Virus record (IMG/VR): IMGVR_UViG_3300021961_005457 | Location: 1-43,464 of that record | Reading direction: 5' to 3' (one strand) | From: a virus | DNA length: 43,464 bases | Shown: positions 4,981 to 24,752 of the stretch, in pieces | How positions within the stretch are numbered: the stretch's first letter is position 1 | How the letters are laid out: every line of letters begins with the position of its first letter | Notes under the pieces: model-generated | The model's database searches: none | Told to the model about the DNA's origin: nothing | What the model saw: only the letters and a program-made list of their open reading frames with translations | Translations under genes and position numbers: made by a program

Positions 4981-7900
4981 TTAGAATCCAAATACTATTG
5001 CCATTGCAATAGCTTTACCAGTTGACGCTTTTGTGTTTGCAGTTTCAAATGCAGAGTTAGCTTGTATGTAGGCTGAGTTGGCATACGAAGATGCAACAGT
5101 TGCATCATCACTGCCGTATGACAATTCTCTAATCTGAATCTTAGTGCCAGATGTTGGTGCAGTTGTGAATGTTAAAGTTGTTCCAGTCAATGTATAGTCG
5201 GTGATTGGTGTCTGTACGACACCGTTCTCCATTACCATAACACTGTTTGCACTTGTTCTTGCTGAGACTGTGTAGTTTACAGTTGTGCCGTCACCAGTGT
5301 AGTTTCTATTTTGATATTGGCCAGAACCTTGTTGACCACCATAATATGTAGAAACATCGATTGCAACACCAGTATCAGGTGCATCTGAGAATGTTAATAT
5401 ATTACTGCTGACGTTATATGCAGATTTATGTTGTGAAATGCCGTCTAACGTAACAGTTGTAAAGTTTTTACTGAATGGTGTTACACTTAATGTAAATGCT
5501 GTGTTTGATCCATCACCAGTGAAACTATCTACAGCAACATTCAAAGACACAGCAGTATTTGCTTGAATGAATGCCGCATTAGCCTGATTTCTCGCAAACG
5601 TATCGGTAGTACCACCGCCACCACCTGTATTAGCAGCTGCGAAGGCCGCATTGGCATGTAAGTATGCGGCATTAGCATAAGCGCTTGCAGAGTTTGCAGT
5701 GCCGATTGTAATGAAGTTTGCTGATGCATTGGCTGCGGCAAATGCAGAGTTAGCATATGAAGCTGCAGAATTGGCAGTACCAATTGCAATAAAGTTTACA
5801 GAAGCATTGGCTGTTGTGAAGGCCGCATTGGCATAATCTTCTGCTGCGGATGAACCAATATTGGAGTAACTTGTGCCGTCATTGGTAAATGTCCACTTAT
5901 CAATAGACTCATTCCACTTCAACATTACTGGATTAGAATCGCCACGAACAACTCGTATACCAGCGTCAAGTGCAGGAACACCAGTTACATCCCATGCAAC
6001 ATCAACAATAGAATCATGTACTCTTAATGTTTCAACAGTTAAGGTTGCAGTGCATCCAGAAACTGTTATGTTGCCGTTGATTGTCAAGTCACCAGTAATT
6101 GTACCACCAGATGTTGATAGTTTTGTGTTAGCCGCAACGAATGCACCATTTGCATAAGAACTTGCAGAGTTGGCAATACCAAATGCGGCATTGGCATATA
6201 CACCAGCAGATACTGCCTTTTGGTCTCCAGTATTGGCTGCAACAAAAGCACCATTAGCATATGAACTAGCAGAGTTAGCAATACCAAATGCGGCATTGGC
6301 ATATGTACCTGAAGTTACCGCACGTTGATCGGCAGTGTTTGCGGCAAGATATGCGGAATTGGCGTAGGACTCAGAAGCTGCAGAACCTATGTTACTGTAG
6401 TTGGTGCCATCATTTGTGAACGTCCACTTGTCTGTGGTTTCGTTCCAGAGTATCGCTGTATTTGTAGAACTTCCACGTGCAACTTCAAAACCGGCATTCT
6501 CTGTTGGGGCAGTTGCCGCAGGAATGTCAGCGTTCAAGGTAATAATATTATCACCTAAAAGTACTGTTGTTGTATTTGCGTAAGTTGTTTGGCCGGTGAT
6601 TGTCAAGTTACCAGTGATATTAACATCACCAGAGATAGTACCACCAGTAGAATTAAACTTAGTATTAGCTAATGTATATGCTGAGTTAGCATAAGAACCA
6701 CTTGTTACTGCACGTTGGTCGGCCGTGTTGGCTGCTTCGAATGATGAGTTAGCATAGACACCTGATGTTACTGCTCTTTGGTCAGCAACGTTAGCTGCGG
6801 CATATGCAGAGTTTGAATAAGAACTTGCCGCATTTGCAGCCAAACGAACCCAAGAGTCAATAGCAGAACCAGAAGCAACAGTATTTGCAAATGCATAAGA
6901 TGAATTAGCATGAGTGTATGCAGAGTTGGCATATGCACCAGAAGTAACTGCTCTTTGATCAGCAGTAGCTGCATTAGTTGTAGCAGTGTTTGCCTGTATA
7001 AAAGCACCGTTGGCATATGAAGAAGCAGAGTTTGCAGTACCAAATGAACCGTTGGCATATGAACTTGCTGAATTGGCTGCGTTGCGAACCCAAGTATCTA
7101 CTGCATTGTTGGCAGCTGCAAAGGCTGCATTAGCGTAAACACCAGCTGATGTTGCTGTAACATTTGCAGTATTGGCCAAGTCAAACGCAGAGTTGGCATA
7201 AGAAGATGCAGAGTTAGCCGCATTTCTCACCCATGAATCAGTTGCATTATTAGCGGCTGTGAAAGCTGCGTTCGCATAAACACCAGCACTTGTTGCCTTT
7301 TGGTCTGCAGTATTAGCCTGAATGAATGATGAGTTGGCATAAGAGCTAGCCGCATTAGCTGCGTTTCTTACCCATGTGTCTGTTGCATTGTTAGCTGCCG
7401 CAAAAGCTGCATTTGCATATGCACCAGCGGAGTTGGCAGTTTGGAATGCGGAGTTAGCATAAGAACCAGCAGAATCTGGAACACCATAATAAGTTACAAC
7501 ATCAATTGGTAAACTAGTAGATGGCGCCTCAGAGAATGTAATTACGTTGCCTGTTAATGTGTATGCAGACTTATGTTGCGTTACACCATTCAATGTAATT
7601 AATGTGTAGTTCTCATTTGCTGGTGTTGTTGAAAGTGTAAATGTTGTTGTGTTTCCATCAGCAACAAAAGAATCAAGTGCAACACTTAAGTTGAATGCAC
7701 CACCAGATGCCGCATTGGCCGCATCAAAAGCAGCATTCGCTTGAATTCTTGCAAACGTATCGGTAGTACCACCGCCACCAGAGTTAGCAACCGCAAAAGC
7801 TGCATTTGCATGAATGTATGATGCATTAGCTTGATTTCTAGCAAATGTGTCGGTAGTACCGCCACCGCCAGAGTTAGCAATTGCAAAGGCTGCATTAGCA

Positions 7901-10900
7901 TGAATGTATGCTGAGTTAGCATATGCACCAGATGTTACGGCACGTTGATCTGATTGAGCAGCATTTGTTGCAGCAGTATTTGCCTGAACGAAGGCACCAT
8001 TTGCATAAGAAGCTGCAGAGTTGGCAGTGCCTAATGTGATGAAGTTGATAGAAGCATTTGCGGCTACAAAAGCTGCATTAGCGTATACTCCAGAACTAGT
8101 AGCAGTTGTGTTTGCTGTATTAGCCTGTAAGTATGCAGAGTTAGCATATGAACTTGCAGCATTTGCAGAATTTCTAGCAAAACCATCTGTAGAAGTACCA
8201 CCAGATAATGAGTTTGCCAAATCAAAAGATGCTTGTGCTAGTATTGTACCTGTGTTGGCCTGTGTGTATGCTGAGTTGGCGTATGAACTAGCAGAAACAG
8301 AATTTACATTTGCAGTGTTAGCAGCTAAAAAGGCTGCGTTAGCATACACACCAGCAGAAGTTGCAGTAACATTGGCTGTATTAGCTAAGGTGAATGATGC
8401 ATTAGCATAAGTGCCAGCACTTACACTTTTTTGGTCTGCTGTGTTAGCAGCTTCAAAAGCTGCATTAGCGTAAACACCTGAAGTTACTGCTTTCTGGTCA
8501 GCAGTAGAAGAATTGGTTACTGCAGTGTTTGCTTGACTGTATGCAGAATTAGCATAAGAACCACTTGTAACTGCACGTTGATCTGCAGTATTAGCCGCAG
8601 CGAAAGCACCATTTGCATAAGAACTAGCTGAACCAGCATTTGTAACTGCAGTATTAGCCTGAGTGTATGAAGCATTAGCATAAACACCAGCAGAGACTGC
8701 TTTCTGGTCGGCAGTGTTAGCTGCCAAGTAAGCACTATTAGAATAACTAGAAGTTGCATTAGCGGCATCACGAACCCAAGAGTCAACGGCAGTACCAGAA
8801 GAAACTGTATTAGCAAAAGCAAACGCAGCATTGGCGTGTGCATATGCCGTATTTGTGTGGTTGATTGGATCGTAACCACGAATTACAGCAACATCAGTGA
8901 TTAGATTTGCAGTTAAATTTGCAATTCTAAATGTTGAGTGATTGGTATCGATATATGGTGATGCGTCTGGTTCTGGTTGGTAGTTGTAGAAAAACTTCCA
9001 TGTACCATCGGAAGCATCACGGAACACACCAGTGTGGTGATACGTACCATCGTTATAATTACCAGCAAAACCTAAATCTGGATTGGCAACAGTATTATTA
9101 GCATTCAGATAAATCATGTTATCTTGTATGCTTAAATTATTTGCAGAAACTGTTGTTACATTACCAGAAATTACTAAGTTACCAGTAACAGTTACATCAC
9201 CAGAGATTGTACCACCAGTAGAATTGAACTTGGTGTTGGCAGTATTAAATGCAGCTGCCGCATTTAGTGCAGTTGTATTAGCTAATGTATATGCAGAGTT
9301 TGCATATGAACCGGCAGACAGTGCATTCGTTGCAGCTGTATTGGCCTGAGTGTATGCTGAGTTGGCGTATGTACCAGATGTAACTGCTCTCTGGTCAGCT
9401 GTATTAGCTGCAACGAAAGCACCATTAGCATAATTGGAAGCAGAGTTAGCAGCAGAACGAACCCATGTATCTACTGCATTGTTAGCAGCTGCAAATGCGG
9501 CATTGGCTTGAGCAAAAGCTAATGTGGTATTAGATGCAACAAGAGAAACTGGTTGTTGAATAACAATGTTACCAACCATACCTGAGTGTACTGAGCATTG
9601 ATACACATAAGTCAAACCAGCCAAATCAAAAGGCACCTTCCAGTAGATAGTGCCAGTGGTTTGAGATTGGGCGCTAGAGCCTGTTGATACTACACCATTA
9701 ACAGAAACGTGTGTTAAACCTGTATTATAGTTTGTGCCACCTGCTGATTCACGCAACATGAACGGATGACCAGATACATTATCTAAAAAGAATGCTATTG
9801 TTTCACCGGCAGAAACATATATTGTAGGATTGTTTCCTGAATATTGGTCAACACTGTAGTACAAGCCAGGAGATGTAACCACCAACTTAGTGACAGCACT
9901 TGTATAATTGGAATTAGCTTGTGTGTAGGCTGCATTAGCGTATACACCAGCAGAAACTGCTTTTTGGTCTGCAGTATTAGCTGCAACAAATGCTGAGTTG
10001 GCATATGAACTTGCGGCATTAGCAACATTTCTAGCAAAACCATCGGTTGAAGTACCGCCAGATAATAAATTAGCTAAATCAAATGATGCTTGCGCTAAAA
10101 TTGTTCCAGTGTTTGCTTGAGCATATGCAGAGTTGGCATATGAACCAGATGTTACTGCTTTTTGGTCAGCCGTACCAGCATTGATTAGTGCCGTGTTGGC
10201 AGTTGAATATGCTGAGTTAGCGTAATTCGAAGCGTTGTTTGCAGCTGTTCGAACCCATGTATCCACTGCTGAGTTGGCAGCTGCAAAAGCTGCGTTGGCA
10301 TAGACACTAGCAGAAGTTGCAGTTTGATTTGCTGTATTAGATAATGTGTAAGCTGCATTAGCATATACACCAGAAGTTACTGCTTTTTGGTCGGAGGTAT
10401 TGGCTGCCAAGAAAGCACTGTTAGCATATGAACCAGCAGAAACTGCTTTCTGGTCTGCAGTATTAGCTGCCAAGTAAGCACTATTAGAATAACTAGATGC
10501 TAAGTTAGCAGAACTATATGCACTATTGGCGTAAACACCAGCAGACACACCTTTTTGGTCAGCAGTATTGGCTGCGGCAAAAGCACTATTAGCATAACTA
10601 GATGCTGAGTTAGCAGAACTATATGCACTATTAGCAAACACACCTGACGTTACTGCTCTTTGGTCTGCGGTTGCCGCATTTGTGTTTGCTGTGTTTGCTT
10701 GTATGTAAGCAGAGTTAGCATATGAACTTGCCGCAATTGCCGTTTGGTTTGCTGTGTTTGCTTGTATGTAAGCAGAATTAGCATATGAACTTGCAGATAA
10801 TGCATTAGTTGTTGCAGTATTTGCTTGGTTGTAACTAGAGTTTGCCTCTATGAATGCTGAGTTGGCATAAGAGCTTGCAGAGTTTGCCGCAACGTAACTA

Positions 10901-13671
10901 GAATTGGCCTGAATGTATGCAGAGTTGGCATAAGAACCAGCTGATACTGCATATTGAGAAGAAATATTTGCCTGTGCATAAGCAGCATTAGCATGTAAGT
11001 AAGCACCAGCAGCTGAACCAGAAGCAATCGTATTTGCTAATGCGTAGGCTGAATTAGCATATGATTCTGCAGCTGCTGAACCAATATTGCTGTAAGAAGA
11101 ACCATCGTTTGTAAATTCCCATTTGTCATTCGTTTCATTCCAACGTAATTGAGTTGGTGTTGAATCACCACGAATAACTCTTAACCCAGCATTCTCTGTT
11201 GGAATACCTGTTGAAAAATTACTGTTTAAATCAATGGTGTTATCAGCAAGAGCAATAACTTCTGTGTTGATTGTTGTTACTTGGCCAGATACAGTTAAGT
11301 TACCAGAGACATTCAAGTCACCAGAAATTGTACCACCAGATGAAGACAGTTTAGAATTTGCGGTTGTATATGCAGAGTTCGCATATGAACTAGCAATTAC
11401 TGCTTTTTCGTCAGCAGTATTGGCTGCCAACAAACCAGCATTAGCATAAACACCTGCTGAATTTGCGGAGAGAAAAGCACCATTAGCATAAACACCAGAA
11501 GTTACGGCTTTCTGGTCTGCCGTATTGGCTGCAACAAAAGCACCATTCGCATATGAACCAGCTGAGAGTGCATTCAACGAAGCTGTGTTGGCAGTTAGAT
11601 AAGATGCGTTGGCATATGAACCAGCAGATAAAGCATTTAGGGCGGCCGTATTGGCTGTTGTATAACCAGAATTTGCATATGAACCAGCTGACAATGCATT
11701 AACTGAAGCTGTGTTAGCTAAATCATAAGCAGCATTAGCATGTAAGAAAGCACCAGCAGCTGAACCAGATGCAATTGTATTTGCTAATGCGTAGGCTGAA
11801 TTAGCATATGAACCGGCAGATGTTGCATTTAAGTTGGCAGTATTTGCCAAGTTGGATGCAGTGATTGCATCTAGACCTGCAGTAATAGCTGATGAAGATG
11901 CTGAATTTGCAACATTGAAAGCTGCATTGGCATGTGAACTAACTGTAGAAATTAATCCTCTAGCAACATTATCTGAAGCAGCAGTTTCAGCAATAGACAA
12001 TTCTCTAATCTGAATGTCAACATTGGCTGCAGGTACAAGAGTAAATGTTAATGTTGTGCCATAAACTATGTAGTCTGAAAAGGGAGCTTGTACAACACCA
12101 TCTTGAGTAACAAATATACTACTCTCGGATGCGGTATTAGATACTTCAAAATTTACATTTATACCATCAGCTACATAATTACGTGCAATGAAAGTACCTC
12201 TAACTGCACCACCAATTGTATTTGCGAATTGATATGATGCATTGGCATGTATAAAAGCAGAGTTAGCAAAAGAGCTAGCGGCCGCTGCATTTGTTATACC
12301 AGTATTAGCTGCAACAAAAGCACCATTTGCGTAAGATGATGCAGAGTTGGCAACACCAAAAGCCGCATTAGCATAAACACCAGATGTTACTGCACGCTGA
12401 TCTGCAGTAGCTGCATTTGTCGTAGCAGTGTTTGCTTGAGTATATGATGCGTTTGCCTGTGTATATGCTGAGTTTGCATATAAGCCTGATGTGACTGCTT
12501 TTTGATCCGCAACAGCTGCATTAATAGTTGCAGCATTCGCCTGTAAATAACTAGAATTTGCTTGAATGTATGATGCATTAGCGTATGCGCCAGAAGTTAC
12601 TGCACGCTGGTCGGCTTGAGCTGCATTAGTTGTAGCTGTGTTTGCCTGTAAATATGCTGAATTAGCATATGAACCAGTAATGGTTATATTTGTTGCATTC
12701 GTATTGGCAAGAATAAATGCGGCATTTACATGTGGTCTAGCATATAAATCAATTGCTGTCGATACTAATGTGTTTGCTAAATTGTACGCTGCATTGGCGT
12801 GTGTGAATATCTGTTCACCATTAATGTAAAAGTTGCCACCAATGCCACCAGAAGTTACAATACCATTTTGGCCAAGTACGGAGAAACTGCCACCTAAACC
12901 AAATCCATCTACACCAGAGTTACCATAAAAATTTACACTACTATTAGCCTTGGCATATGCTGAATTGGCATAAGAACCAGCAGACACAGCCTTTTGGTCA
13001 GCAGTGTTGGCTGCAACAAAAGCACCATTAGCATAAGATGATGCTGAGTTTGCGGCACTAAAAGCACCATTAGCATAAGACTCTGCAGATATTGAAGCTA
13101 TGTAACGAAAGTTTGTACCATCATTAGTGAATTCCCAGTTATCATTTGCTTCATTCCAACGGAATTGAACAGGTAATTCATCACCACGGATGACACGTAT
13201 ACCAGAGTTTTCAGTTGGAGTGCCAGATTCGAAGTTACTATTTAAATCAATTGTGTTGTCTGCAATCTTAACAATCTCAGATGTTACAGTTGTTGTTGCA
13301 CCAGATACAGTTAAATTACCTGTAACTACAACATTACCAGAGATTGTACCACCAGAAGATGAGTATTTTGTATTAGCTAATGTATATGAAGCATTAGCAT
13401 ATACACCAGCGGATTGTGCATATTGAGTTGCAGTATTCGCTTCATTAAATCCAGCATTTGCATGAACGTATGATGAATTGGCGTGTAAGTATGCACTAGC
13501 AGCTGAACCTCCAGCAATTGTGTTAGCGAACGCATATGCCGAATTGGCATATACACCAGCTGAAACTGCTTTTTGGTCAGCCGTATTGGCCGCAACAAAA
13601 GCAGAATTGGCTGTATTCGATACTCTTTTTGCTTGACTCTTAGCTTGATCGCCTAGGTAATTTATTGTCAT
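4981..13671 (-). CDS. Giant Ala/Asn-rich tail fibre 2 (2896 aa) with cupredoxin-like insert
   Basis: The longest gene in the window. Unlike fibre 1 it lacks an attachment domain: the Ala-rich heptad units begin by residue 20 (VSNTANSAFVAANTADQKAV). Beta modules of the GGTISGD...RWNE...TNDGTNY type occur near 13078-13365, 11063-11350, 6365-6665 and 5838-6125, with a variant at 8860-9240. Other inserts are a cupredoxin-like domain (residues about 1256-1375) and four FxxDGxxxxF beta domains. Two of these read GVVQxPxxDY, near 12000-12210 and 5110-5310. Two read QHKSAY, near 7480-7690 and 5340-5550. The C-terminus is hydrophobic (AIAMAIVFGF). Without an attachment domain it may be the distal half of a composite fibre joined to fibre 1 (inference). 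DNA repeats inside make assembly errors possible. Confidence 0.85.
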   Translation of the reverse strand: MTINYLGDQAKSQAKRVSNTANSAFVAANTADQKAVSAGVYANSAYAFANTIAGGSAASAYLHANSSYVHANAGFNEANTATQYAQSAGVYANASYTLANTKYSSSGGTISGNVVVTGNLTVSGATTTVTSEIVKIADNTIDLNSNFESGTPTENSGIRVIRGDELPVQFRWNEANDNWEFTNDGTNFRYIASISAESYANGAFSAANSASSYANGAFVAANTADQKAVSAGSYANSAYAKANSSVNFYGNSGVDGFGLGGSFSVLGQNGIVTSGGIGGNFYINGEQIFTHANAAYNLANTLVSTAIDLYARPHVNAAFILANTNATNITITGSYANSAYLQANTATTNAAQADQRAVTSGAYANASYIQANSSYLQANAATINAAVADQKAVTSGLYANSAYTQANASYTQANTATTNAATADQRAVTSGVYANAAFGVANSASSYANGAFVAANTGITNAAAASSFANSAFIHANASYQFANTIGGAVRGTFIARNYVADGINVNFEVSNTASESSIFVTQDGVVQAPFSDYIVYGTTLTFTLVPAANVDIQIRELSIAETAASDNVARGLISTVSSHANAAFNVANSASSSAITAGLDAITASNLANTANLNATSAGSYANSAYALANTIASGSAAGAFLHANAAYDLANTASVNALSAGSYANSGYTTANTAALNALSAGSYANASYLTANTASLNALSAGSYANGAFVAANTADQKAVTSGVYANGAFLSANSAGVYANAGLLAANTADEKAVIASSYANSAYTTANSKLSSSGGTISGDLNVSGNLTVSGQVTTINTEVIALADNTIDLNSNFSTGIPTENAGLRVIRGDSTPTQLRWNETNDKWEFTNDGSSYSNIGSAAAESYANSAYALANTIASGSAAGAYLHANAAYAQANISSQYAVSAGSYANSAYIQANSSYVAANSASSYANSAFIEANSSYNQANTATTNALSASSYANSAYIQANTANQTAIAASSYANSAYIQANTANTNAATADQRAVTSGVFANSAYSSANSASSYANSAFAAANTADQKGVSAGVYANSAYSSANLASSYSNSAYLAANTADQKAVSAGSYANSAFLAANTSDQKAVTSGVYANAAYTLSNTANQTATSASVYANAAFAAANSAVDTWVRTAANNASNYANSAYSTANTALINAGTADQKAVTSGSYANSAYAQANTGTILAQASFDLANLLSGGTSTDGFARNVANAASSYANSAFVAANTADQKAVSAGVYANAAYTQANSNYTSAVTKLVVTSPGLYYSVDQYSGNNPTIYVSAGETIAFFLDNVSGHPFMLRESAGGTNYNTGLTHVSVNGVVSTGSSAQSQTTGTIYWKVPFDLAGLTYVYQCSVHSGMVGNIVIQQPVSLVASNTTLAFAQANAAFAAANNAVDTWVRSAANSASNYANGAFVAANTADQRAVTSGTYANSAYTQANTAATNALSAGSYANSAYTLANTTALNAAAAFNTANTKFNSTGGTISGDVTVTGNLVISGNVTTVSANNLSIQDNMIYLNANNTVANPDLGFAGNYNDGTYHHTGVFRDASDGTWKFFYNYQPEPDASPYIDTNHSTFRIANLTANLITDVAVIRGYDPINHTNTAYAHANAAFAFANTVSSGTAVDSWVRDAANATSSYSNSAYLAANTADQKAVSAGVYANASYTQANTAVTNAGSASSYANGAFAAANTADQRAVTSGSYANSAYSQANTAVTNSSTADQKAVTSGVYANAAFEAANTADQKSVSAGTYANASFTLANTANVTATSAGVYANAAFLAANTANVNSVSASSYANSAYTQANTGTILAQASFDLANSLSGGTSTDGFARNSANAASSYANSAYLQANTANTTATSSGVYANAAFVAANASINFITLGTANSAASYANGAFVQANTAATNAAQSDQRAVTSGAYANSAYIHANAAFAIANSGGGGTTDTFARNQANASYIHANAAFAVANSGGGGTTDTFARIQANAAFDAANAASGGAFNLSVALDSFVADGNTTTFTLSTTPANENYTLITLNGVTQHKSAYTLTGNVITFSEAPSTSLPIDVVTYYGVPDSAGSYANSAFQTANSAGAYANAAFAAANNATDTWVRNAANAASSYANSSFIQANTADQKATSAGVYANAAFTAANNATDSWVRNAANSASSYANSAFDLANTANVTATSAGVYANAAFAAANNAVDTWVRNAANSASSYANGSFGTANSASSYANGAFIQANTATTNAATADQRAVTSGAYANSAYTHANSSYAFANTVASGSAIDSWVRLAANAASSYSNSAYAAANVADQRAVTSGVYANSSFEAANTADQRAVTSGSYANSAYTLANTKFNSTGGTISGDVNITGNLTITGQTTYANTTTVLLGDNIITLNADIPAATAPTENAGFEVARGSSTNTAILWNETTDKWTFTNDGTNYSNIGSAASESYANSAYLAANTADQRAVTSGTYANAAFGIANSASSYANGAFVAANTGDQKAVSAGVYANAAFGIANSASSYANGAFVAANTKLSTSGGTITGDLTINGNITVSGCTATLTVETLRVHDSIVDVAWDVTGVPALDAGIRVVRGDSNPVMLKWNESIDKWTFTNDGTSYSNIGSSAAEDYANAAFTTANASVNFIAIGTANSAASYANSAFAAANASANFITIGTANSASAYANAAYLHANAAFAAANTGGGGGTTDTFARNQANAAFIQANTAVSLNVAVDSFTGDGSNTAFTLSVTPFSKNFTTVTLDGISQHKSAYNVSSNILTFSDAPDTGVAIDVSTYYGGQQGSGQYQNRNYTGDGTTVNYTVSARTSANSVMVMENGVVQTPITDYTLTGTTLTFTTAPTSGTKIQIRELSYGSDDATVASSYANSAYIQANSAFETANTKASTGKAIAMAIVFGF
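8860..9240 (-). repeat. Beta module of fibre 2 paired with 15390-15765
   Basis: Encodes DNMIYLNANNTVANPDLGFA, then YNDGTYHHTGVFRDASDG, TWKFFYNY and EPDASPYIDT, followed by RIANLTANLITDVAVIRG. It is the fibre 2 copy of the module at 15390-15765. It replaces the RWNE-type module used elsewhere in the same protein. Confidence 0.85.
9541..9905 (-). other. Cupredoxin-like (type 1 copper) domain inside giant fibre 2
   Basis: Residues about 1256-1375 break the Ala-rich repeats with a beta-sandwich pattern: NNPTIYVSAGETIAFFLDN, then SGHPFMLRES, then IYWKVPFD, then YVYQCSVHSGMVGNIVI. The four residues expected for a type 1 copper site are all present: His1302 (GHPF), Cys1359, His1362 and Met1365. The C-x2-H-x2-M spacing equals that of amicyanin, and the flanking GETIAFFLDN and MVGNIVI match plastocyanin-type strands. 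Copper binding is inferred, not shown. Confidence 0.75.
10685..10794 (-). repeat. Tandem duplication of 63 bases (21 residues) in giant fibre 2
   Basis: Copies at 10685-10731 and 10748-10794 match at 46 of 47 bases with a period of exactly 63 bases, which is one 21-residue, three-heptad unit. The near identity contrasts with the diverged neighbouring units and indicates a recent in-frame duplication. Confidence 0.8.
10981..11064 (-). repeat. 84-base near-identical direct repeat, copy 1
   Basis: Differs from 11728-11811 at three positions over 84 bases. Both encode an ANTIASGSAAGAYLHANAA-like segment (the other copy has AF for AY), and they lie 747 bases apart in the same frame within giant fibre 2. 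A related copy with more differences lies near 16310-16390 in fibre 1. Confidence 0.8.
11728..11811 (-). repeat. 84-base near-identical direct repeat, copy 2
   Basis: Partner of 10981-11064 in giant fibre 2, three mismatches over 84 bases. Recombination between the two copies would delete or duplicate 249 codons in frame. Confidence 0.8.
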
Positions 13672-14022: not shown

Positions 14023-14030
14023 TATTTATC
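14023..14030 (-). promoter_or_regulatory. Late promoter-like octamer GATAAATA upstream of the 108-aa gene
   Basis: GATAAATA on the minus strand overlaps the stop of giant fibre 1 and lies 20 bases before the ATG at 14002, almost the same distance as the exact TATAAATA before the 110-aa gene. An AAGAGG ribosome binding site (14014-14009) sits between. The geometry fits a T4-like late promoter of the NATAAATA form. Confidence 0.5.
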
Positions 14031-17000
14031 CGAGTGCAATTGAGAATGCCAGAGAATCTGCTATAATTGTGTTGGCAGAATTATATGCTGCCTGTGCAAG
14101 TATAGTGCCCGTATTTGCTTGACTGTAAGCTGAATTGGCGTAACCTCCTGAAATTACAGATTTTGCATCTGCGGTGTTTGCGGCCGCAAATGCACCATTG
14201 GCATAAGAAGACGCACTGGCCACAAAACCAGTAAGTGTGTTTGCTTGATTGTAAGCTGCAGCTGCCAAAATACCAGCTAATGTTGCATCAGATTGTGCTG
14301 AACCAGCATTAGATGTTGCAGTATTTGCCTGTGAATATGCAGAGTTAGCATAAGAGCCAGCACTCGTTGCATATTGTGTTCCCGTGTTTGCTTGAATATA
14401 AGAAGCATTAGCATAAACACCAGCAGAGACTGCCTTTTGATCTGCCGTATTAGCCGCAACATAAGCTGCATTTGCATGTGGTCTTGCGTATGAATCAACA
14501 GAAGTTGATATTAAAGTATTTGCTAATTCGTAAGCAGAATTGGCATGTACATAAGCTGTATTTGCGGCACCATATGCACCGTTGGCAAATAGTCCAGAAA
14601 TTACTGCTTTTAGGTCAGCAGTTGCAGCATTAGTGTTTGCAGTATTAGCTCTACCAAATGCAGCATTCGCAAAGAAACCTGCAGTGAGCGCTTTACTGTC
14701 TGCAGTTGCGGCATCAGATGTTGCTGTATTGGCCTGAGTAAATGCGGCATTTGCATAATCACCAGCAGTTAGAGCTCTCTGATCTGCAGTATTGGCTTGA
14801 ACAAAACTGGCATTAGCGTGTAAGTAAGCTGAATTCGCATATACACCAGAAGTTACTGCACGTTGATTGGCAGTGTTAGCAATAATATAAGAAGCGTTGG
14901 CATAGACACCAGAAGTAACAGCTCGTTGGTCAGCTTGAGCAGCATTTGTTGTTGCAGTATTTGCTTGGATATAAGATGCGTTTGCATATTCACCAGCAGA
15001 CACTGCCTTTTGATCTGCCGTAGCGGCATCAGTTACACCAGTATTTGCCTTACTGAAAGCTGCATTGGCATATACACCAGCTGAAACTGCTTTCTGGTCT
15101 GCGGTGTTTGCGGCTGCGTAAGCTGCATTAGCGAATGCACCTGAAGATTGTGAAAATTGCGTTGCAGTATTTGTTGCAATATAAGCTGCGTTGGCATGTA
15201 GATATGATGTATTGGCATATACACCTGCACTTGTCGCATATTGAGTACCTGTATTGGCCTGTGTGTATGCAGAATTCGCATAATCACCAGATGTAACAGC
15301 TCTTTGGTCAGCAGTATTAGCTTTTACAAAACCACTGTTAGCATATGATGAAGCAGCATTCGCAACGTCATATGCACCAGATGTATAAGATATCGGATCA
15401 AAACCACGAATAAACGCCACATCTGTAATTAGATTTGCAGTTAGATTAGCAATTCTAAATGTAGCATGTGATGTATCAATGTATGGTGATGCATCTGGTT
15501 CTGGAGAGTAGTTATAGTAGAATTTCCAAGTTCCATCTGATGCATCTCTAAAGACACCAGTATGATGGTAAGTGCCATCGTTGTAGTTACCAGCAATACC
15601 AATATCAGGATTAGCAACAGTATTGTTAGCGTTAAGATAAATCATGTTATCTTCAACGCTTAGGTTTGTTGCACTAATCGTTACAACATTACCAGAAACT
15701 ATCAAGTTACCAGTAACTGTTACATCACCAGAGATTGTACCACCAGAAGCTGAGTATTTTGTATTAGCTAATGCATATGCAGAGTTAGCATATGAACCAC
15801 TAGTTACTGCTCTTTGGTCAGCGGTATTAGCTGCATCAAAAGCACTATTAGAATGTGGTCTTGCATATCCATCAATTGAACCAGATACTAATGTATTAGC
15901 TAATGCATATGCTGAATTAGCATATAGACCTGCTGATACTGCCTTTTGGTCAGCTGTATTAGCCGCAACAAAAGCACTATTGGCATAAGAACTACCAGAA
16001 ATAGAAGTTTGATTTGCAGTATTAGATAATGTATATGCTGAGTTGGCATAAGATCCAGCAGATACTGCTTTTTGATCGGCAGTATTTGCAGCAATGAAAG
16101 AACCATTTGCATGTAAGTATGCTGAGTTGGCATAGTCACCTGCGGCTTGTGCATATTGAGTACCAGTATTTGCTTGAACATATGCAGAGTTAGCGTATGA
16201 ACCTGCAGTCAGAGCTCTCTGATTTGCGGTGTTGGATAATGTATAAGCAGAATTAGCATATGAACCTGCAGCTGTTGCATCATCATATGCAGTATTTGCC
16301 TGAACATAAGCAGCATTAGCGTGTAAGTAAGCACCAGCTGCTGAACCAGAAGCAATTGTATTTGCTAAGTTATATGCAGAATTGGCATAAGAACTTGCGG
16401 CTGTTGCAGTTTGGTTTGCAGTATTTGATAATGTGAATGCAGAATTGACATGTAAGTAAGCAGTATTAGCATAAACACCAGCAGAAACTGCTTTCTGATC
16501 GGCCGTATTTGCGGCATCAAACGCACCATTGGCATATGAACTGGCAGAATTGGCCGTAAAACTTGGAGTATTAGCCTGAATGTAAGCCGCATTAGCATGT
16601 AAATAAGCCGAATTGGCATATAAACCAGATGTAACAGCTCTCTGACTTGCAACGTTAGAATTAGTGTACGCTGAGTTGGCATATGAACCGGCAGATACTG
16701 CTTTTTGGTCAGCAACGTTTGCGGCTAAGAATGCCGAGTTGGCATAATCACCAGCAGTAAGTGCAATTTCTGTACCAGTGTTTGCTTGTGAGAAAGCAGC
16801 ATTTGCATATGTCTCACCAGAATCAGAACCAATGTTACGATAGTTTGTGCCATCGTTTGTGAATGTCCATCTGTCTGTAGTTTCATTCCACAAAATTAAT
16901 ACGTTTGCAGATACACCACGTTCAACGGAAATACCTGCACTCTCAGAAGGCAAACTTAATTGTGGTAAGTCAGCATTCAAATTAATAATATTGTCGCCAA

Positions 17001-20000
17001 TATTAAGTTGTTGTGTATTTAAATATGTTGTTGAACCAGAAACGTTTAAGTTACCTGTAATATCAACGTCACCAGTAATTGAACCACCAGCAGAAGCAAA
17101 TTTAGTATTGGCGTGGTCAAAAGCTGCATTAGCGTATACACCAGCACTTGTTGCATACTGTGTTCCAGTATTTGCTTGAGTGTAAGCTGCGTTAGCGTAT
17201 GCACCAGATGTTACTGCACGTTGACTTGCTACATTGGAATTAGTGTATGCAGAGTTAGCATATGAACCAGCTGATGTTGCATACTGTGTTCCAGTATTTG
17301 CTTGAACGTATGCAGAATTGGCATAATCACCAGATGTAACAGCTCTTTGATCTGCCGTATTAGCTGCAACAAACGCCGCATTGGCGTGAGTGTATCCAAC
17401 ATTAGCATATACACCAGATGTTACGGCACGTTGGTCGGCCGTTGCGGCATTTGTTGTAGCGGTGTTTGCTTGACTGTAAGCAGAATTAGCGTAAGAACCG
17501 GAAGTTACTGATTGTTGATTTGTTGTGTTTGTTGCAACAAAAGAAGCATTAGCGTGTAAGTAAGCGGAGTTAGCATATGAACCAGCAGATACTGCCTTTT
17601 GATCTGCAGTATTGGCCGCAATAAAAGATGAGTTAGCATAATCACCAGATGTAACAGCTCTTTGGTCAGCAGTATTAGCTAATGTGTAGGCAGAGTTGGC
17701 ATATGAACCAGAAGTTACAGCACGTTGATCTGCCGTAACTGCGTTAGTATTGGCAGTGTTTGCTTGTGTAAAAGCTGCATTAGCATAATCACCACTAGTA
17801 ACAGCTCGTTGGTCAGCAGTTGCCGCATTAGTGTTGGCAGTGTTTGCTTGTGCGAAAGCACCATTAGCATAAGACTCAGCTGCATCAGTTCCAATATTTA
17901 AATAGTTGGATCCGTTATTTGTAAATGTCCACTTATCGGTTACTTCATTCCACAACAATGCAACATTCGCAGAAGAACCACGTTCAACGGAAATACCAGC
18001 ACTCTGTGAAGGTAAATCAAACTGGCCAACGTCAGAATTCAAGTTAATAATATTATCAGCAATATTAACTTGTTCTGTGTTTATGTAACTTGTTGTGCCT
18101 GAAACAGTGAAATTACCAGTAACAGATACGTCACCAGAAATTGTACCACCAGCAGAAGCAAACTTAGTATTAGCATGGTCATATGCGGAGTTTGCGTGAT
18201 TAAACGCAGCAGTTGCTGAACCAGATGCAATAACATTAGCAAAAGCATAAGCTGCATTAGCGTATGAACCAGCACTTACACCTTTTTGGTCTGCTGTGTT
18301 AGCAGCTTCAAAAGCTGCATTGGCATAAACACCAGCTGACTGTGCATACTGTGTTCCAGTATTTGCCTGTATATAACTGGCATTAGCATGTAAAGTCGTT
18401 ACGTTTGCTTGATTATATGCCGCATTGGCATAAACAGAAGCAGAGTTGGCAGTATGACTAGGAGTATTGGCCTGAATGTAAGCCGCATTTGCATGTAAAT
18501 ATGCAACGTTAGCATATGATTCTGCAGCTGAAGATGCAATGTTGGAGTATAAAACACCATCATTCGTAAATTGCCAAGATTTTACCAGTTCATTCCAACG
18601 AAGCAATACTGGATTTTCATCACCACGAATAACACGAATACCGGAGTTTTGCGTTGGTGTTCCAATTGTTTCTGCACTAATATCAATAATCGAATCTTCA
18701 ACAGTCAATGTTGGAACACTCAATCGTGCAGAAGTGCCAGAAACGGTTAAGTTACCAGAAACTGTTAAGTCACCAGATACAGTGCCGCCAGCTGCAGATA
18801 GTTTTGTGTTAGCAGTAATAAAAGCAGAGTTGGCATAATCACCACTAGTAACAGCTCGTTGGTCTGCTTGAGAAGCTGCAGATGTTGCAGAATTGGCTTG
18901 AACATAAGCCGCATTTGCATAACGACCAACTGTGTTTGCATTTTCGAATGCTGAATTTGTATGTGTTCTAGCGAATGTATCAACAGCAGTAACTGACAAA
19001 CTATTAGCATATGCAAAAGCACTAGTTGCAATAGTGAATGATATATTAGCTGCATCAAAAGCACCATTGGCGTGGTTTAGAGCTTGAATACCTGTTGCTA
19101 AATCAATAACTGAGTTTGCTTTTGCGTATGCAGCCAAACCAATTAATGTTGCAGTATTAGCCTGAGAAAAAGCCGCATTTGCAAATTGTGAAGACTGTAC
19201 ACCAGTATTTGCTTGAATAAAAGCAGCATTTGCGTGATTGTAAGCTAACGTTACTGTATTTGCTTTTATAAATGCTGAATTAGCATATGAACCAGAAGTT
19301 ATAGCACGTTGGTCAGCCGTGGCCGCAATTGTATTTGCAGTATTTGCTTGGTTGAAAGCCGCTTGAGAAAATGTAGGACTTAAAGTATTTGCAGCCTCAA
19401 AAGCTGCATTAGCGTGTGACCAAGCTGAGTTAGCAACAAAGCTCGGAGTATTTGCCTGAGTGTATGCAGCGTTAGCATAGTTACCAGAAACAACTGCTCT
19501 ATTGTTGGCAAGATTAGCTCTAGCAAAAGCCGCTTCTGCGTGAATTGTTACAACAGAACCAACAGCAAATGACGCATTAGCTTGTAAGTATGCTGAGTTG
19601 GCATAGTCACCAGCACTTGCAGCACCAATTTGAATAGCGCTATTGCCGTCACTGTATAACCATCTATTACCAGTTTCATCCCAAGTGATAGCTGCATTTG
19701 GTTCAATACCACGTTCAATCTCAATACCAGCATTCTGTGTTGGAGTAGCAGATTGTCCTAAGTCAGCATTCAATGTGATGATGTTATCACCAATGTTTAA
19801 CTGATTCGAATCAACGTAAGTTAAATTACCAGTTACAGTTAAATTACCTGTAACAACTAAACTGCCAGAAATTGTACCACCAGTTGTAGATAGTTTTGTA
19901 TTTGAATTTGCAAAGGCTGCATTAGCATGTACATACGCAGAGTTGGCATATGAACCAGCATTAACAATATCAGTCGCACTATTTTGTGCGGTGTTGTATG

Positions 20001-20934
20001 CCAGCGTTGCTGAATTTGAAACAATCGATATCGTATTTGATAAAGATATTACTAAATTTGATGTTTCTTGTGCCGTATTGAAAGCAAGATTTGCTTGTGT
20101 GTTGGCTGTTGCCGCAATATTTGCAGATAGATTGGCAGCTGCAAAAGCACCATTAGCATAAGAACTTGCACTATTAGCGGCCGCACGTACCCAAGGATCA
20201 ACTGCATTGTTTGCAGCCAAGAAAGCTGCATTAGCATAAACACCGGCAGATAATGCGTTGGTGTTAATTGTGTTTGCTAAATCATATACACTGTTAACAT
20301 GTATATAAGAAGAATTTGCCAAAGCCAATGCTGCATTGGCTGTATTGGATATTGTTAGTACACTGGTTGGATTTAAAACATTGGCAGCCGCAAAAGCGGC
20401 ATTTGCCGTATTGGCAGCTGAATTTGCTTTGTCAAAACTATCTTGTGTTGTAATTTGTACTGTGTTAACATTGATAACTCTACCAGAAGAAGCAACAGAA
20501 ATAATTGGTATATGAGTGGCATTACCATAAATTCCACCAGTAATAATGTCAGTTAAATAAATGTCTACTGCTGGATATTCATCTCCATCACCAACTATAA
20601 CATTACCACTCAAGTCACCAGAAAAATTTAAGTGAACTGGACTTGCAAATGTATTCGCAGTGTTTGCAGTACCTCGTAAATTACCAATAAATGTGTTAGC
20701 ACTAATGTTCCCATTTGCGTCACGTTTAACAAGAGTATTAGCACTTACATTGCTAGTACGTTCATCGATTAAATCAATATAGTGTTTGCCACCAATAATA
20801 TCAAAAGAACCATTTGCATTACCAATAAACATCTTATTGGAAACAAACGAATATGCAAATTCACCAGTGTCTAATAGTCCTGGAGTTGGTGCGGTATTAG
20901 ATACCGAATATTTGGTTATGATTATCGTTGACAC
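14026..20934 (-). CDS. Giant Ala/Asn-rich tail fibre 1 (2302 aa) with N-terminal attachment domain
   Basis: A 2302-residue fibre. Residues 1-50 (ITKYSVSNTAPTPGLLDTGE, then FAYSFVSNKMFIGN) resemble the N-terminal attachment segment of fibres in T4-like aquatic phages. Residues about 50-165 are beta-rich. The rest is several dozen degenerate 21-residue units (pattern ANTADQKAVSAGVYANSAY plus two residues). Each unit is three heptads with Ala at positions a and d, predicting a long trimeric helical shaft. Five beta modules interrupt it near 19604-19900, 18508-18805, 17875-18170, 16813-17102 and 15390-15765. Each starts GGTISGDVxVTGNLxVSG, and most continue to RWNE and TFTNDGTNY. The C-terminus is hydrophobic (SLAFSIALG) with no S74 domain. 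The start is a GTG abutting the previous stop; no nearby ATG gives a complete N-terminus. Confidence 0.85.
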   Translation of the reverse strand: MSTIIITKYSVSNTAPTPGLLDTGEFAYSFVSNKMFIGNANGSFDIIGGKHYIDLIDERTSNVSANTLVKRDANGNISANTFIGNLRGTANTANTFASPVHLNFSGDLSGNVIVGDGDEYPAVDIYLTDIITGGIYGNATHIPIISVASSGRVINVNTVQITTQDSFDKANSAANTANAAFAAANVLNPTSVLTISNTANAALALANSSYIHVNSVYDLANTINTNALSAGVYANAAFLAANNAVDPWVRAAANSASSYANGAFAAANLSANIAATANTQANLAFNTAQETSNLVISLSNTISIVSNSATLAYNTAQNSATDIVNAGSYANSAYVHANAAFANSNTKLSTTGGTISGSLVVTGNLTVTGNLTYVDSNQLNIGDNIITLNADLGQSATPTQNAGIEIERGIEPNAAITWDETGNRWLYSDGNSAIQIGAASAGDYANSAYLQANASFAVGSVVTIHAEAAFARANLANNRAVVSGNYANAAYTQANTPSFVANSAWSHANAAFEAANTLSPTFSQAAFNQANTANTIAATADQRAITSGSYANSAFIKANTVTLAYNHANAAFIQANTGVQSSQFANAAFSQANTATLIGLAAYAKANSVIDLATGIQALNHANGAFDAANISFTIATSAFAYANSLSVTAVDTFARTHTNSAFENANTVGRYANAAYVQANSATSAASQADQRAVTSGDYANSAFITANTKLSAAGGTVSGDLTVSGNLTVSGTSARLSVPTLTVEDSIIDISAETIGTPTQNSGIRVIRGDENPVLLRWNELVKSWQFTNDGVLYSNIASSAAESYANVAYLHANAAYIQANTPSHTANSASVYANAAYNQANVTTLHANASYIQANTGTQYAQSAGVYANAAFEAANTADQKGVSAGSYANAAYAFANVIASGSATAAFNHANSAYDHANTKFASAGGTISGDVSVTGNFTVSGTTSYINTEQVNIADNIINLNSDVGQFDLPSQSAGISVERGSSANVALLWNEVTDKWTFTNNGSNYLNIGTDAAESYANGAFAQANTANTNAATADQRAVTSGDYANAAFTQANTANTNAVTADQRAVTSGSYANSAYTLANTADQRAVTSGDYANSSFIAANTADQKAVSAGSYANSAYLHANASFVATNTTNQQSVTSGSYANSAYSQANTATTNAATADQRAVTSGVYANVGYTHANAAFVAANTADQRAVTSGDYANSAYVQANTGTQYATSAGSYANSAYTNSNVASQRAVTSGAYANAAYTQANTGTQYATSAGVYANAAFDHANTKFASAGGSITGDVDITGNLNVSGSTTYLNTQQLNIGDNIINLNADLPQLSLPSESAGISVERGVSANVLILWNETTDRWTFTNDGTNYRNIGSDSGETYANAAFSQANTGTEIALTAGDYANSAFLAANVADQKAVSAGSYANSAYTNSNVASQRAVTSGLYANSAYLHANAAYIQANTPSFTANSASSYANGAFDAANTADQKAVSAGVYANTAYLHVNSAFTLSNTANQTATAASSYANSAYNLANTIASGSAAGAYLHANAAYVQANTAYDDATAAGSYANSAYTLSNTANQRALTAGSYANSAYVQANTGTQYAQAAGDYANSAYLHANGSFIAANTADQKAVSAGSYANSAYTLSNTANQTSISGSSYANSAFVAANTADQKAVSAGLYANSAYALANTLVSGSIDGYARPHSNSAFDAANTADQRAVTSGSYANSAYALANTKYSASGGTISGDVTVTGNLIVSGNVVTISATNLSVEDNMIYLNANNTVANPDIGIAGNYNDGTYHHTGVFRDASDGTWKFYYNYSPEPDASPYIDTSHATFRIANLTANLITDVAFIRGFDPISYTSGAYDVANAASSYANSGFVKANTADQRAVTSGDYANSAYTQANTGTQYATSAGVYANTSYLHANAAYIATNTATQFSQSSGAFANAAYAAANTADQKAVSAGVYANAAFSKANTGVTDAATADQKAVSAGEYANASYIQANTATTNAAQADQRAVTSGVYANASYIIANTANQRAVTSGVYANSAYLHANASFVQANTADQRALTAGDYANAAFTQANTATSDAATADSKALTAGFFANAAFGRANTANTNAATADLKAVISGLFANGAYGAANTAYVHANSAYELANTLISTSVDSYARPHANAAYVAANTADQKAVSAGVYANASYIQANTGTQYATSAGSYANSAYSQANTATSNAGSAQSDATLAGILAAAAYNQANTLTGFVASASSYANGAFAAANTADAKSVISGGYANSAYSQANTGTILAQAAYNSANTIIADSLAFSIALG
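15390..15765 (-). repeat. Beta module of fibre 1, near-identical in protein to one in fibre 2
   Basis: This module diverges from the other four in the same gene: after DNMIYLNANNTVANPD it reads GNYNDGTYHHTGVFRDASDG, TWKFYYNY and EPDASPYIDT. The only close relative in the window is at 8860-9240. The two proteins differ at few positions, whereas the DNA differs at many third codon positions, so the copies are old and held by selection. Confidence 0.85.
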
Positions 20935-21521: not shown

Positions 21522-24500
21522 TTATTTGTTCAGTTGTTTCTTGATTTCCTCTAATTTATCGTCTAACTCTTTAATAGCTTCAAAAACTAGTCCCATCATA
21601 TTACCATAAGCAACACCTTTAATTCCATTGTGTTCTTCAACAGCTTCAGGTAAAACTACTTCAACATCTTGAGCGATAACACCAGTATGTCTCTTTGCTT
21701 TATCGGAGAGGTCTTTTCTGTTATATGTATAACCAGTAATTTGTCTAACTTTTGCAAGAGCATCACCAATTTTCTCAAGGTTATCTTTAAGTTTTCTATC
21801 AGAGAAAGCAGTAACATTACCACTAGAAGTGATTGAACCAGTAACCGAAAAGGTGCCGGTGTAAGAACCACTCATAGTTAATGTGCCAGTGGAAGTAATT
21901 GAACCACTCAAACCATTTCCTGTTGATACTGATGTGACAGCCGATGTTAAATAACCGTATGAAGTCCATGGAGTGCCGGTAACAAATCCAGCACCGTTAG
22001 TTAACTGATTTGTATTTGTTGGTATAGTTGGTGCACCAGTTAATTTACTATATGCTAAACTTGAAATAAAAGATGGATTAGAATAACTCTGAGTTGTATA
22101 AACACCATTACTAACAGTATCAGCATTGCCAGCTGTTGATGCCTTACCGCTAATATCAATTGCATAAGAACCAGACATTCTGGCTGATGGAACTGTACCT
22201 GAAGTTAAGTTACTTGCACTCAAATTCGTCAAATTAGGAGTAACTGAAGACCAAGCAAATGCTGAACCTGTCCATTGTAAGAATCTATCACCAACACTTG
22301 GTGCATCAATAAAAGTTGTTGTGTCAGCTGCAGATTGATATGGAATTCTAAATCCACTTCCACCAGCAATGTTAGTTGCTTTTGAAGCCAATAAACTTGC
22401 AGCATTAAAATCTGTAAAGTTACCAGCGTTATCACTGTATTGCCATCTTGGAGGACTTACACTCTCATTCCATCTAATATAAGCGTCAGTTGATGTACCA
22501 CGTTTAACTCTGATACCACCAGGTTGTGTTGGACCAGATGTGTCTAACAATCCATTATTGACTACTACGAAGTTGCCATTCGCACGAATATCACCAGAAA
22601 TGAAAGCATTATAACTAATTAATCGTTTTGCATTTGGAAACGTTACATCACCATTAATTGTTAAATCACTGGCAATAGTTTGTGATGATGCAGATGTTTT
22701 TAGTAATGCGCCATTGCCAAGTGTTGTCGCTAATGTTGCTGTTGTATTTGCAACGTTAGCTAATGTCCAAGCACTACCAGCTAATGTATTTGCAGAAGCA
22801 GCTGCAACGTTAGCTAACGCAGCATTAGTGTTTGCTGTTTCTGCCAAATTGAAAGCAATTGAAGCATTATTTAATGCCGTATTAGCTACCTCAAATGCAC
22901 TGTTGGCATAAGAACCAGCGGACCTTGCATTATTGTTTGCAGTTGTAGCCAATGTATTTGCACTGTTGCCATTTTCTCTTGCAAAATTATCAACCGAACC
23001 AGCAGAAACTGTATTAGCTAAAGTAAAAGCAGCATTAGCATGAAAGAATGCCAAATTGGAGTTTGCATTTGCGGTTGTTGCCAAATTCAAAGCAAGATTT
23101 GCAACATTACCAACAATTGCTGATGTGATGATTAAAAATGTATTTGCAGTGTTTGCGGCAGTGAATGCACCATTGGCATATGAAGAAGCTGATGTTGCAG
23201 TTTGATTGGCAGTATTGGCCAAAGTATAAGCACTGTTGCCATAACCACCAGCAACAACTGCGGTATCATATGCAGCCTTAACCGCACTTGGTGTAGCAAC
23301 GTTTGCGGTACTATTACTTGTTACTGTTGCATTTAAGAAACTTGCATCCAAAATGCCATACAAACTTGAGTATGTATTACCTTTAGAAACTTTCCATTGG
23401 TCATCTGTTTCGTCCCAACGAATCAAAGCATCTGTGCCAACAACACGATTGTTACGAATTGTTGCATCAGCATTTGTTGGTGTGTTTGCATTTAATGTAA
23501 ATTCACTAACTTCATACTCAACGTTACCTAACGCAGTCCATGTACCTTCAACGGCAATGTTACCACGAATATATGTTGTTTGCAGAGTTGTTTTACCATC
23601 AACTGTTAATACTTCATCTTCTACTGTATTTGCATAAACACGAATTGCACCACCAGTTTTAACACTCAAATTATTTGATACATTAATCCATGCAGCATTT
23701 GCAGTGGAAACTTCAATGTTATTTGAAATTAATGTGTTGGCTGTAATTGTATTTGAAGACGACAAATATGTAATTGAAGCATTCGTAACATTAGCATTAC
23801 TTGATAACAATGTTTGTATTGTACCAGTATTAACTGTTGCAACATTTGAGGTAAGTGTCACAACATTGCCAGTGATTGTGGTTCCAACTAATGCAGTTAA
23901 TGTATTAATTGTGGCAACATTAGATGACAATGTAACAACGTTACCATTAATCACAGTACCATTTGTAATTGTTGAATTTGTGGAAACTAAATTCTGAACA
24001 GTGCCATTATTGATTGTTGAAACGTTTGATGTTAATGTAACTAAGTTTGCAGAAGTTCTTGCAACCAATACAGTAACATTACCATATGTTGTATCTAATG
24101 TGTTTGAATTGATATCATTAGAATTCAATAGATTGTTATCGATTGTACCAATGTTTGCATATGGCAAATAATTCAATACACCAATTGTGGCCACAGCAGC
24201 GGTTAAGTTTGCAGTAAACACATCATCTGCATACATGTAAGTGCTCAATACACGATTGATAGTTGCCGTACCGGTATTGACATACATTACATTTGCCAAA
24301 CCAGAAAGTCTCAAAATGCCCGCACTTGTAATATTTCGGGTAACTGACACGTTGCCGTTTGCAGTAATGTTCTGCACATATACATTGTTAACAACTTGAA
24401 CATCCGCACCAACCAAGACGTTATTGGCTACGTTTAACGCTGTTCCTGGACCTGTTATACGAATTGTTCCACCAGAGATTAGGTTACCTGTTGCCGCACC

Positions 24501-24752
24501 GACAACACCCAAAAACATGTTGTTGGCAAGAGTTAAGTTACTTTGAAAGAGTACATTGTTTGCCACAGACAGTGGTGTACCTGATGCCGTAATAGACACA
24601 TTTGCTGTGTTGGAAATGAGTAATTGACCTTGGTCTTTCTCGTATGTGAAGAATCCCAAATCATTCAAATCTGTTGCTGATTTGTTGGTTTGGATTCTCC
24701 ACTGGTCAATGGTATCGCTTCTGGCAATTGTTGGGATAGTAGACGTTGGCAT
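21522..24752 (-). CDS. Tail fibre with C-terminal S74 intramolecular chaperone/peptidase
   Basis: A 1076-residue fibre. Residues 1-75 (PTIARSDTIDQWRIQTNKSA, then DLGFFTYEKDQGQLLIS) are a conserved attachment domain of T4-like aquatic phage fibres. Residues about 80-390 are repetitive TSNVATINxGT-type strands, probably a beta-helix. Residues about 400-470 and 700-790 carry two 'RWNE/RWDE' beta modules like those of the giant fibres, separated by an Ala/Asn-rich helical stretch. The C-terminal 93 residues are a peptidase S74 domain: FSDRKLKDN with Ser984 as the expected cleavage nucleophile and Lys989 at the +5 position, then HTGVIAQDVEVVLPEAV. Such domains trimerise the fibre and then cleave themselves off. 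The final helix (IKELDDKLEEIKKQL) is coiled-coil. AAAGG precedes the ATG. Confidence 0.88.
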   Translation of the reverse strand: MPTSTIPTIARSDTIDQWRIQTNKSATDLNDLGFFTYEKDQGQLLISNTANVSITASGTPLSVANNVLFQSNLTLANNMFLGVVGAATGNLISGGTIRITGPGTALNVANNVLVGADVQVVNNVYVQNITANGNVSVTRNITSAGILRLSGLANVMYVNTGTATINRVLSTYMYADDVFTANLTAAVATIGVLNYLPYANIGTIDNNLLNSNDINSNTLDTTYGNVTVLVARTSANLVTLTSNVSTINNGTVQNLVSTNSTITNGTVINGNVVTLSSNVATINTLTALVGTTITGNVVTLTSNVATVNTGTIQTLLSSNANVTNASITYLSSSNTITANTLISNNIEVSTANAAWINVSNNLSVKTGGAIRVYANTVEDEVLTVDGKTTLQTTYIRGNIAVEGTWTALGNVEYEVSEFTLNANTPTNADATIRNNRVVGTDALIRWDETDDQWKVSKGNTYSSLYGILDASFLNATVTSNSTANVATPSAVKAAYDTAVVAGGYGNSAYTLANTANQTATSASSYANGAFTAANTANTFLIITSAIVGNVANLALNLATTANANSNLAFFHANAAFTLANTVSAGSVDNFARENGNSANTLATTANNNARSAGSYANSAFEVANTALNNASIAFNLAETANTNAALANVAAASANTLAGSAWTLANVANTTATLATTLGNGALLKTSASSQTIASDLTINGDVTFPNAKRLISYNAFISGDIRANGNFVVVNNGLLDTSGPTQPGGIRVKRGTSTDAYIRWNESVSPPRWQYSDNAGNFTDFNAASLLASKATNIAGGSGFRIPYQSAADTTTFIDAPSVGDRFLQWTGSAFAWSSVTPNLTNLSASNLTSGTVPSARMSGSYAIDISGKASTAGNADTVSNGVYTTQSYSNPSFISSLAYSKLTGAPTIPTNTNQLTNGAGFVTGTPWTSYGYLTSAVTSVSTGNGLSGSITSTGTLTMSGSYTGTFSVTGSITSSGNVTAFSDRKLKDNLEKIGDALAKVRQITGYTYNRKDLSDKAKRHTGVIAQDVEVVLPEAVEEHNGIKGVAYGNMMGLVFEAIKELDDKLEEIKKQLNK

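Follow-up and report, generated by a model that had tools for sequence, protein, structure and literature searches.

A selected, predicted type 1 copper site in a cupredoxin module of a phage tail-fibre shaft

The closest described counterparts of the domain reported here are the cupredoxins amicyanin and plastocyanin (PF00127), with which it shares an upstream His and an all-beta sandwich. Amicyanin is the soluble periplasmic electron carrier of methylamine dehydrogenase, whereas the present domain lies inside the open reading frame of a 2896-residue phage tail fibre; its ligand loop, C-x2-H-x2-M followed by x-G, is of amicyanin length, and amicyanins are its best PDB profile matches. Unlike amicyanin and plastocyanin, the domain is embedded in a virion fibre, lacks its own secretion signal, has a longer middle region and shows about 20% identity to them; it is likened to amicyanin, as a domain that works like one, rather than classed as one. 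The first predicted copper ligand (His1302, in G-H-P-F) is out of register with the P-H-N of amicyanin in the profile alignment. In rusticyanin the first His lies in G-H-S-F, which is closer to G-H-P-F than the amicyanin context is, and the NCBIfam rusticyanin model (TIGR03095) covers nearly all of the domain (10-117 aligned to 35-147 of 148), but the ligand loop of the domain is shorter and its score is far below the equivalog cut-off (19.3 versus 146.7 bits). On the phage side, the C-terminal domain of the cyanophage baseplate connector gp9 (phrog_677) is the same module, matched at E 1.2e-22 and with identical ligands; gp9 is a baseplate protein of about 410 residues, whereas the module described here lies mid-shaft in a far longer fibre with the rest unmatched, the match being limited to profile positions 303-410 and made by the cupredoxin domain alone. 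Metal ligands are also built into the tail fibres of T4 (gp37) and Alteromonas phage R22Y, where iron is bound by His-x-His pairs of the trimeric tip (PMC11705849); in contrast, the present fibre uses a one-chain His/Cys/His/Met site, and no His pair two residues apart occurs in its 2896 residues. The same domain type is found in flavobacterial lipoproteins, which differ in being cellular and, in some cases, fused to Lipoprotein_15 repeats. A search of open-licence papers returned no description of cupredoxin, blue copper, plastocyanin-like or copper-binding phage tail proteins, and PMC8115048 deals with a viral nitrite reductase, not with tail proteins. The fold and the ligand set are known, whereas the module's setting in a virion shaft and baseplate connector, its wide occurrence and its conserved site do not appear to have been described in the open-licence literature searched.

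The window, i.e. the whole stretch of 43,464 nucleotides that was analysed (IMG/VR record IMGVR_UViG_3300021961_005457), represents a cluster of baseplate and fibre genes from a myovirus of the T4 superfamily, a placement based on its gp6-like baseplate wedge subunit. It encodes baseplate wedge subunits, hub and lysozyme pieces, a distal tail fibre protein and two Ala-rich fibres (Table 1). A sequence-only reading of this DNA had placed a complete type 1 copper site in the shaft of an Ala-rich fibre of 2896 residues, at positions 9541-9905, and the sequence features of that description were borne out: the frame encodes 2896 residues, the interval contains the domain core, the translation holds His1302, Cys1359, His1362 and Met1365 with the C-x2-H-x2-M spacing, and the shaft setting agrees with 63 YANxx[FY] repeat units and with the helical structure predicted, at low confidence, for the sequence that flanks the domain on either side. 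The best phage matches of the fibre are annotated as tail fiber-like protein. Outside the cupredoxin domain, Ala accounts for 23% of the residues, and the repeat units lie around ten other low-Ala segments. In this fibre and its relatives the cupredoxin is set between repeat units, often with A-F/Y-x-Q-A-N-S before and S-N-T-x-L-A-F after it, and the entire chain contains two Cys residues, including the ligand Cys1359. Other non-repeat modules of the fibre lie at residues 497-563, 1999-2074 and 2708-2863; DUF4183-like segments recur among such modules, with a sub-threshold Pfam match at 1997-2056, and a GGTISGDV...TNDGT module is present in several copies.

Table 1. Positions of the fibre, its cupredoxin domain and neighbouring genes in the window
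Feature	Position	Strand	Basis
Ala/Ser/Asn/Thr-rich tail-fibre-like protein, 2896 aa, domain carrier	4981..13671	-	ORF, translation, best phage matches, 63 YANxx[FY] units
Downstream repeat flank of cupredoxin domain, predicted helical (low confidence)	9340..9549	-	Structure prediction
Cupredoxin domain core, residues 1262-1374	9550..9888	-	PF00127 above cut-off, PDB profile matches, AF2 and Foldseek
Met1365, axial ligand (predicted)	9577..9579	-	Translation, invariance
His1362, second His ligand (predicted)	9586..9588	-	Translation, invariance
Cys1359, thiolate ligand (predicted)	9595..9597	-	Translation, invariance, Cys scarcity
His1321 (G-L-T-H), fifth His, near-invariant only in the window's subfamily	9709..9711	-	Alignment
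His1302, first copper ligand (predicted), G-H-P-F context	9766..9768	-	Translation, invariance
Upstream repeat flank of cupredoxin domain, predicted helical (low confidence)	9889..10104	-	Structure prediction
Sister Ala-rich fibre, 2302 aa, no Cys, no cupredoxin domain	14026..20934	-	
Long tail fibre distal-subunit-like protein	21522..24752	-	PHROG matches
gp6-like baseplate wedge subunit	35766..37841	-	phrog_219 E 1.6e-161; 42% to Methylophilales phage Melnitz
Subtilisin-like S8 protein in baseplate cluster	38300..40540	-	PF00082 E 4.4e-22; phrog_9158

As an isolated segment, the domain matches PF00127 (Copper-bind) with an E-value of 5.2e-5 and a score of 24 bits, above the gathering cut-off of 21.2, and 30 of 43 homologues also match it (E<=0.01); Copper-bind is absent from the Pfam scan of the intact 2896-residue protein, and routine annotation would therefore overlook the domain. 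A single-sequence search of the PDB with the domain gave no significant match, and a profile of 15 phage copies (A1) matched 59 PDB chains at E<=0.1, led by amicyanin (2.8e-6) and consisting of cupredoxins and copper enzymes with cupredoxin domains. A reversed-sequence control profile made from 13 of the A1 rows had no PDB match at E<=1, and the H...C-x2-H-x2-M arrangement arose in none of 5000 shuffles of the fibre. For pattern scans, the A1 alignment proved too diverse. AlphaFold2, supplied with 43 aligned sequences, predicted an all-beta domain (pLDDT 93.5, pTM 0.87), and the best 50 PDB fold matches found by Foldseek all have the cupredoxin fold, being laccases and other multicopper oxidases, amicyanins, plastocyanins, pseudoazurins, nitrous oxide reductases and factor VIII. 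Superposition on the PDB cupredoxins is moderate (TM mostly 0.41-0.60, rmsd 5-10 A, E 8e-5 to 2.5e-3); among viral models (BFVD) the best match, an unnamed model, reaches TM 0.86, and most of those that carry a name are phage tail proteins (TM about 0.6-0.73). When the domain was folded together with its flanks, the model was poor (pLDDT 59). A chance motif is ruled out by the Pfam and PDB profile matches, the predicted fold, the reversed control and the shuffles. The cupredoxin proposed from the ligand pattern was thus recovered by the Copper-bind score, the amicyanin-led profile matches and the predicted fold, and the segment is almost certainly a genuine cupredoxin, most probably a single-copper module that lies in a long tail fibre between repeat units of predicted helical structure. 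The BFVD matches also include giant viruses, among them a ‘Blue type 1 copper protein’ of Fadolivirus, and small beta-sandwich, cupredoxin-like proteins of pithovirus and marseillevirus relatives.

Conservation of the ligands was evaluated in sets gathered in different ways. A first IMG/VR scan, the patterns of which took in ligand segments, returned 192 relatives; the cellular set was recruited by a pattern with Cys and His, and isolates were gathered through their similarity to queries with the ligands. Ligand invariance can be stated without this bias from a second IMG/VR scan, for which the query was the inter-ligand stretch only (segment residues 50-103, containing no ligand) and which gave 53 loci. 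Among these, one copy is cut by a contig end, and His, Cys, His and Met are kept in every full-length copy but one. The sole full-length exception (L148:624-1001) has lost all four ligands together and lies downstream of an intact copy (92-427), and a tandem of an intact cupredoxin (748-1122) and a ligand-free copy (1261-1650) is also present in L039. The ligand-free copies of these two loci represent natural metal-free controls. In an alignment of 96 distinct sequences, viral and cellular, all four ligands rank among the six best-conserved columns out of 102 (P = 3.5e-6, if columns are exchangeable). Within the window's subfamily, protein identity between copies falls to about 28% (median 66%), and the His (CAT/CAC) and Cys (TGT/TGC) ligand codons turn over synonymously with the residues unchanged. 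The four ligands, in which the sequence-only reading had seen a preserved copper set, therefore do not vary freely by any of three measures, namely the ligand-free-query set, the codon turnover and the 96-sequence columns. The subfamily is represented by 15 contigs with one or two copies each, usually one, as expected for a fixed structural site. The equivalent of His1321 is absent from the cyanophage gp9 copies.

The Cys content of the fibres bears on the same site. Outside the domain, 15 Cys residues occur in 34,458 fibre residues (0.44 per 1000), and inside it there is essentially one in each copy. A disulphide Cys is ruled out by the lack of a conserved partner Cys in the domain and by the near absence of Cys from the fibres, and a conserved lone thiol in oxic water, normally without a disulphide partner, points to metal ligation. 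The domain might instead hold another metal, such as zinc, or be largely metal-free and serve as a plain beta-sandwich decoration, comparable to the Ig-like domains of other phages; the persistence of ligand-free copies beside intact ones would fit such a role, as would the Ig-like modules in the giant tail proteins of related phages (a weak match). However, a plain decoration would let its ligands drift, yet these are invariant at about 30-40% identity, and the ligand Cys is the only regular Cys of the fibres, so that this alternative is improbable. Ligand loss is all-or-none and was seen only beside an intact copy, which favours a metal role over the bare fold; on the other hand, because ligand-free copies persist, the fold can apparently last without metal, so that the invariance may call for more than stabilisation. 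As judged from these comparisons, the predicted metal site itself is under selection, beyond the mere fold. We regard the module as carrying a real type 1 copper site that is under selection and occurs in a setting new for it, and we infer metal binding and its use from sequence. Of the roles suggested in the sequence-only reading, namely a more rigid shaft, copper binding at the host surface, docking on a host partner and redox sensing, any may apply; the use of the metal could be a stabilised contact knob, a metal bridge to the host or redox docking.

Similar blocks in structural proteins of aquatic myoviruses had been mentioned in the sequence-only reading, which was correct and understated their extent. 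A cyanophage-type query retrieved 348 isolate-phage records with the domain, many of them near-duplicates; 341 are named Synechococcus, Prochlorococcus or Cyanophage, and the other seven comprise four marine single-cell viruses, two Pelagibacter phages and one uncultured phage. Under the names Synechococcus and Cyanophage, 322 domain records stand against 449 with a T4-type capsid protein (about 72%), a comparison that is not paired record by record and in which a few of the carriers are podoviruses. None of the 348 domain records has an enterobacterial name, against more than 1,200 enterobacterial records that hold the T4-type capsid protein. The module is positioned on exterior tail proteins: its usual site is the C-terminus of the gp9 baseplate connector, as in Syn9 and P-SSM4, and it also occurs in fibres, among them a proximal tail fibre, in a podovirus protein, in S8 protease fusions and in S74 proteins. 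Such a distribution could in principle reflect recent recombinational spread of one gene, with conservation as a by-product, since phage fibres swap modules freely and near-duplicate isolate records are many. This explanation is, however, hardly credible, being contradicted by the synonymous turnover at the ligand codons and the column conservation over 96 sequences; the range of identity down to about 28% and the retention of the ligands in cellular relatives also argue against it. In a tree based on a short alignment, with many forks unresolved, no petE row and several ‘genome’ rows that are themselves phage tail proteins, the window domain falls in a well-supported clade of viral contigs beside the cyanophage gp9 copies. 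Capture of a host plastocyanin (petE) is not supported, given a plastocyanin equivalog score (TIGR02656) of 19.4 bits, far below the cut-off of 87.85, and a mostly phage-side clade apart from the flavobacterial ones.

Viruses with the domain probably carry copper on their tails, to judge from the conserved ligand set. Metal is quite likely bound in the virion, and the bound metal is likely to be copper rather than another metal. The chain may fold in the cell either metal-free or with Cu(I), and copper could be loaded at the latest when lysis releases the virions into oxic water. The metal would then lock the ligand loops to give a stiff, protease-resistant knob projecting from the shaft, with three knobs per fibre if the fibre is a trimer. 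This knob may act as an accessory host-surface contact, for which the exposed ligand-His end could provide the docking face. A metal-stabilised contact knob, as opposed to another use, is proposed tentatively, and the functional reading as a whole, that of a copper-stabilised knob making an accessory host-surface contact, somewhat more tentatively still.

A more specific role would be metal-armed receptor binding, in which the copper-loaded domain is a ligand for a copper-uptake or copper-protein partner on the host surface, or a bridge to surface groups through its exposed His. An analogue is the Trojan (Ferrojan) Horse hypothesis of iron-bearing fibres, and the HxH iron of T4 gp37 provides a precedent for metal in fibres (PMC11705849). 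The conservation of the site beyond the fold alone, the location of the module on exterior tail proteins and the all-or-none loss of ligands are consistent with receptor binding; nevertheless, this role is rather unlikely, for the domain lies mid-shaft, near residue 1300 of 2896 and away from the tip, and phages of different hosts carry the same module on proteins as varied as gp9 connectors, fibres and proteases, which fits one receptor poorly.

Cellular copies are mostly flavobacterial secreted lipoproteins with a C-terminal cupredoxin; all ligands are kept, the identity to the cyanophage query is 37-47%, and these copies form separate clades in the tree. Their secreted nature and the position of some beside YceI and DUF5777 genes, together with the complete electron-transfer-type ligand set with its axial Met, could suggest redox docking or sensing, in which Cu(I)/Cu(II) cycling with an electron carrier of the host surface or periplasm would trigger or license a step of infection. 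This is unlikely for the phage module, which in the window resides in an extracellular shaft with no visible electron path or partner and no adjoining redox partner gene, and which occurs in phages that infect hosts with different surfaces. Lipoprotein_15 fusions were observed in L162 and L172 and a short lipoprotein-like ORF in L178; in L172 and L178 the lipoprotein gene is followed by YceI and DUF5777 beta-barrel genes, and this arrangement is a possible cell-surface redox locus. Five loci titled as bacterial MAGs or single-cell genomes (L149, L150, L151, L153 and L157) encode phage-like tail proteins with the domain, one of which (L157) has a C-terminus resembling an S74-type chaperone, and are probably phage sequence inside bacterial assemblies.

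An electron-transfer-type domain with an intact, selected, predicted metal site is unexpected in a virion shaft, and most of the T4-like cyanophages sequenced so far, which are abundant and can be cultured, have the same module on their tails. Should copper be bound, such virions would be copper metalloparticles, and metal-dependent adsorption, stability and contributions to the copper inventories of surface waters could be tested with isolates such as Syn9 and P-SSM4. In the broadest version, most T4-like cyanophages and a large related aquatic group would display a functional type 1 copper site on the exterior of their baseplates or fibres, with its metal or redox state taking part directly in host recognition or in the triggering of infection. 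There is a small but appreciable chance that this is so; if true, it would be the copper counterpart of the iron-armed fibre idea and would connect the adsorption of phages with copper and redox chemistry in surface waters.

As for the host, psbA was not found in ten related contigs, and the nearest relatives of the capsid protein from a contig that carries an identical domain are those of Synechococcus phages (66.7%), followed by Methylophilales phage Melnitz (63.4%); on these data a cyanophage host for the window was not established. In PHROG-family relatives and in cyanophages (P-HM1, ACG-2014e), an S8 domain is joined to a cupredoxin further along the same chain; the S8 protein of the window is without cupredoxin. 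At the edge of the window, the protein encoded at 2-4612 (- strand), which is cut by the window end, contains six laminin-G/ConA-like lectin domains and He_PIG Ig domains and is likely a surface adhesin.
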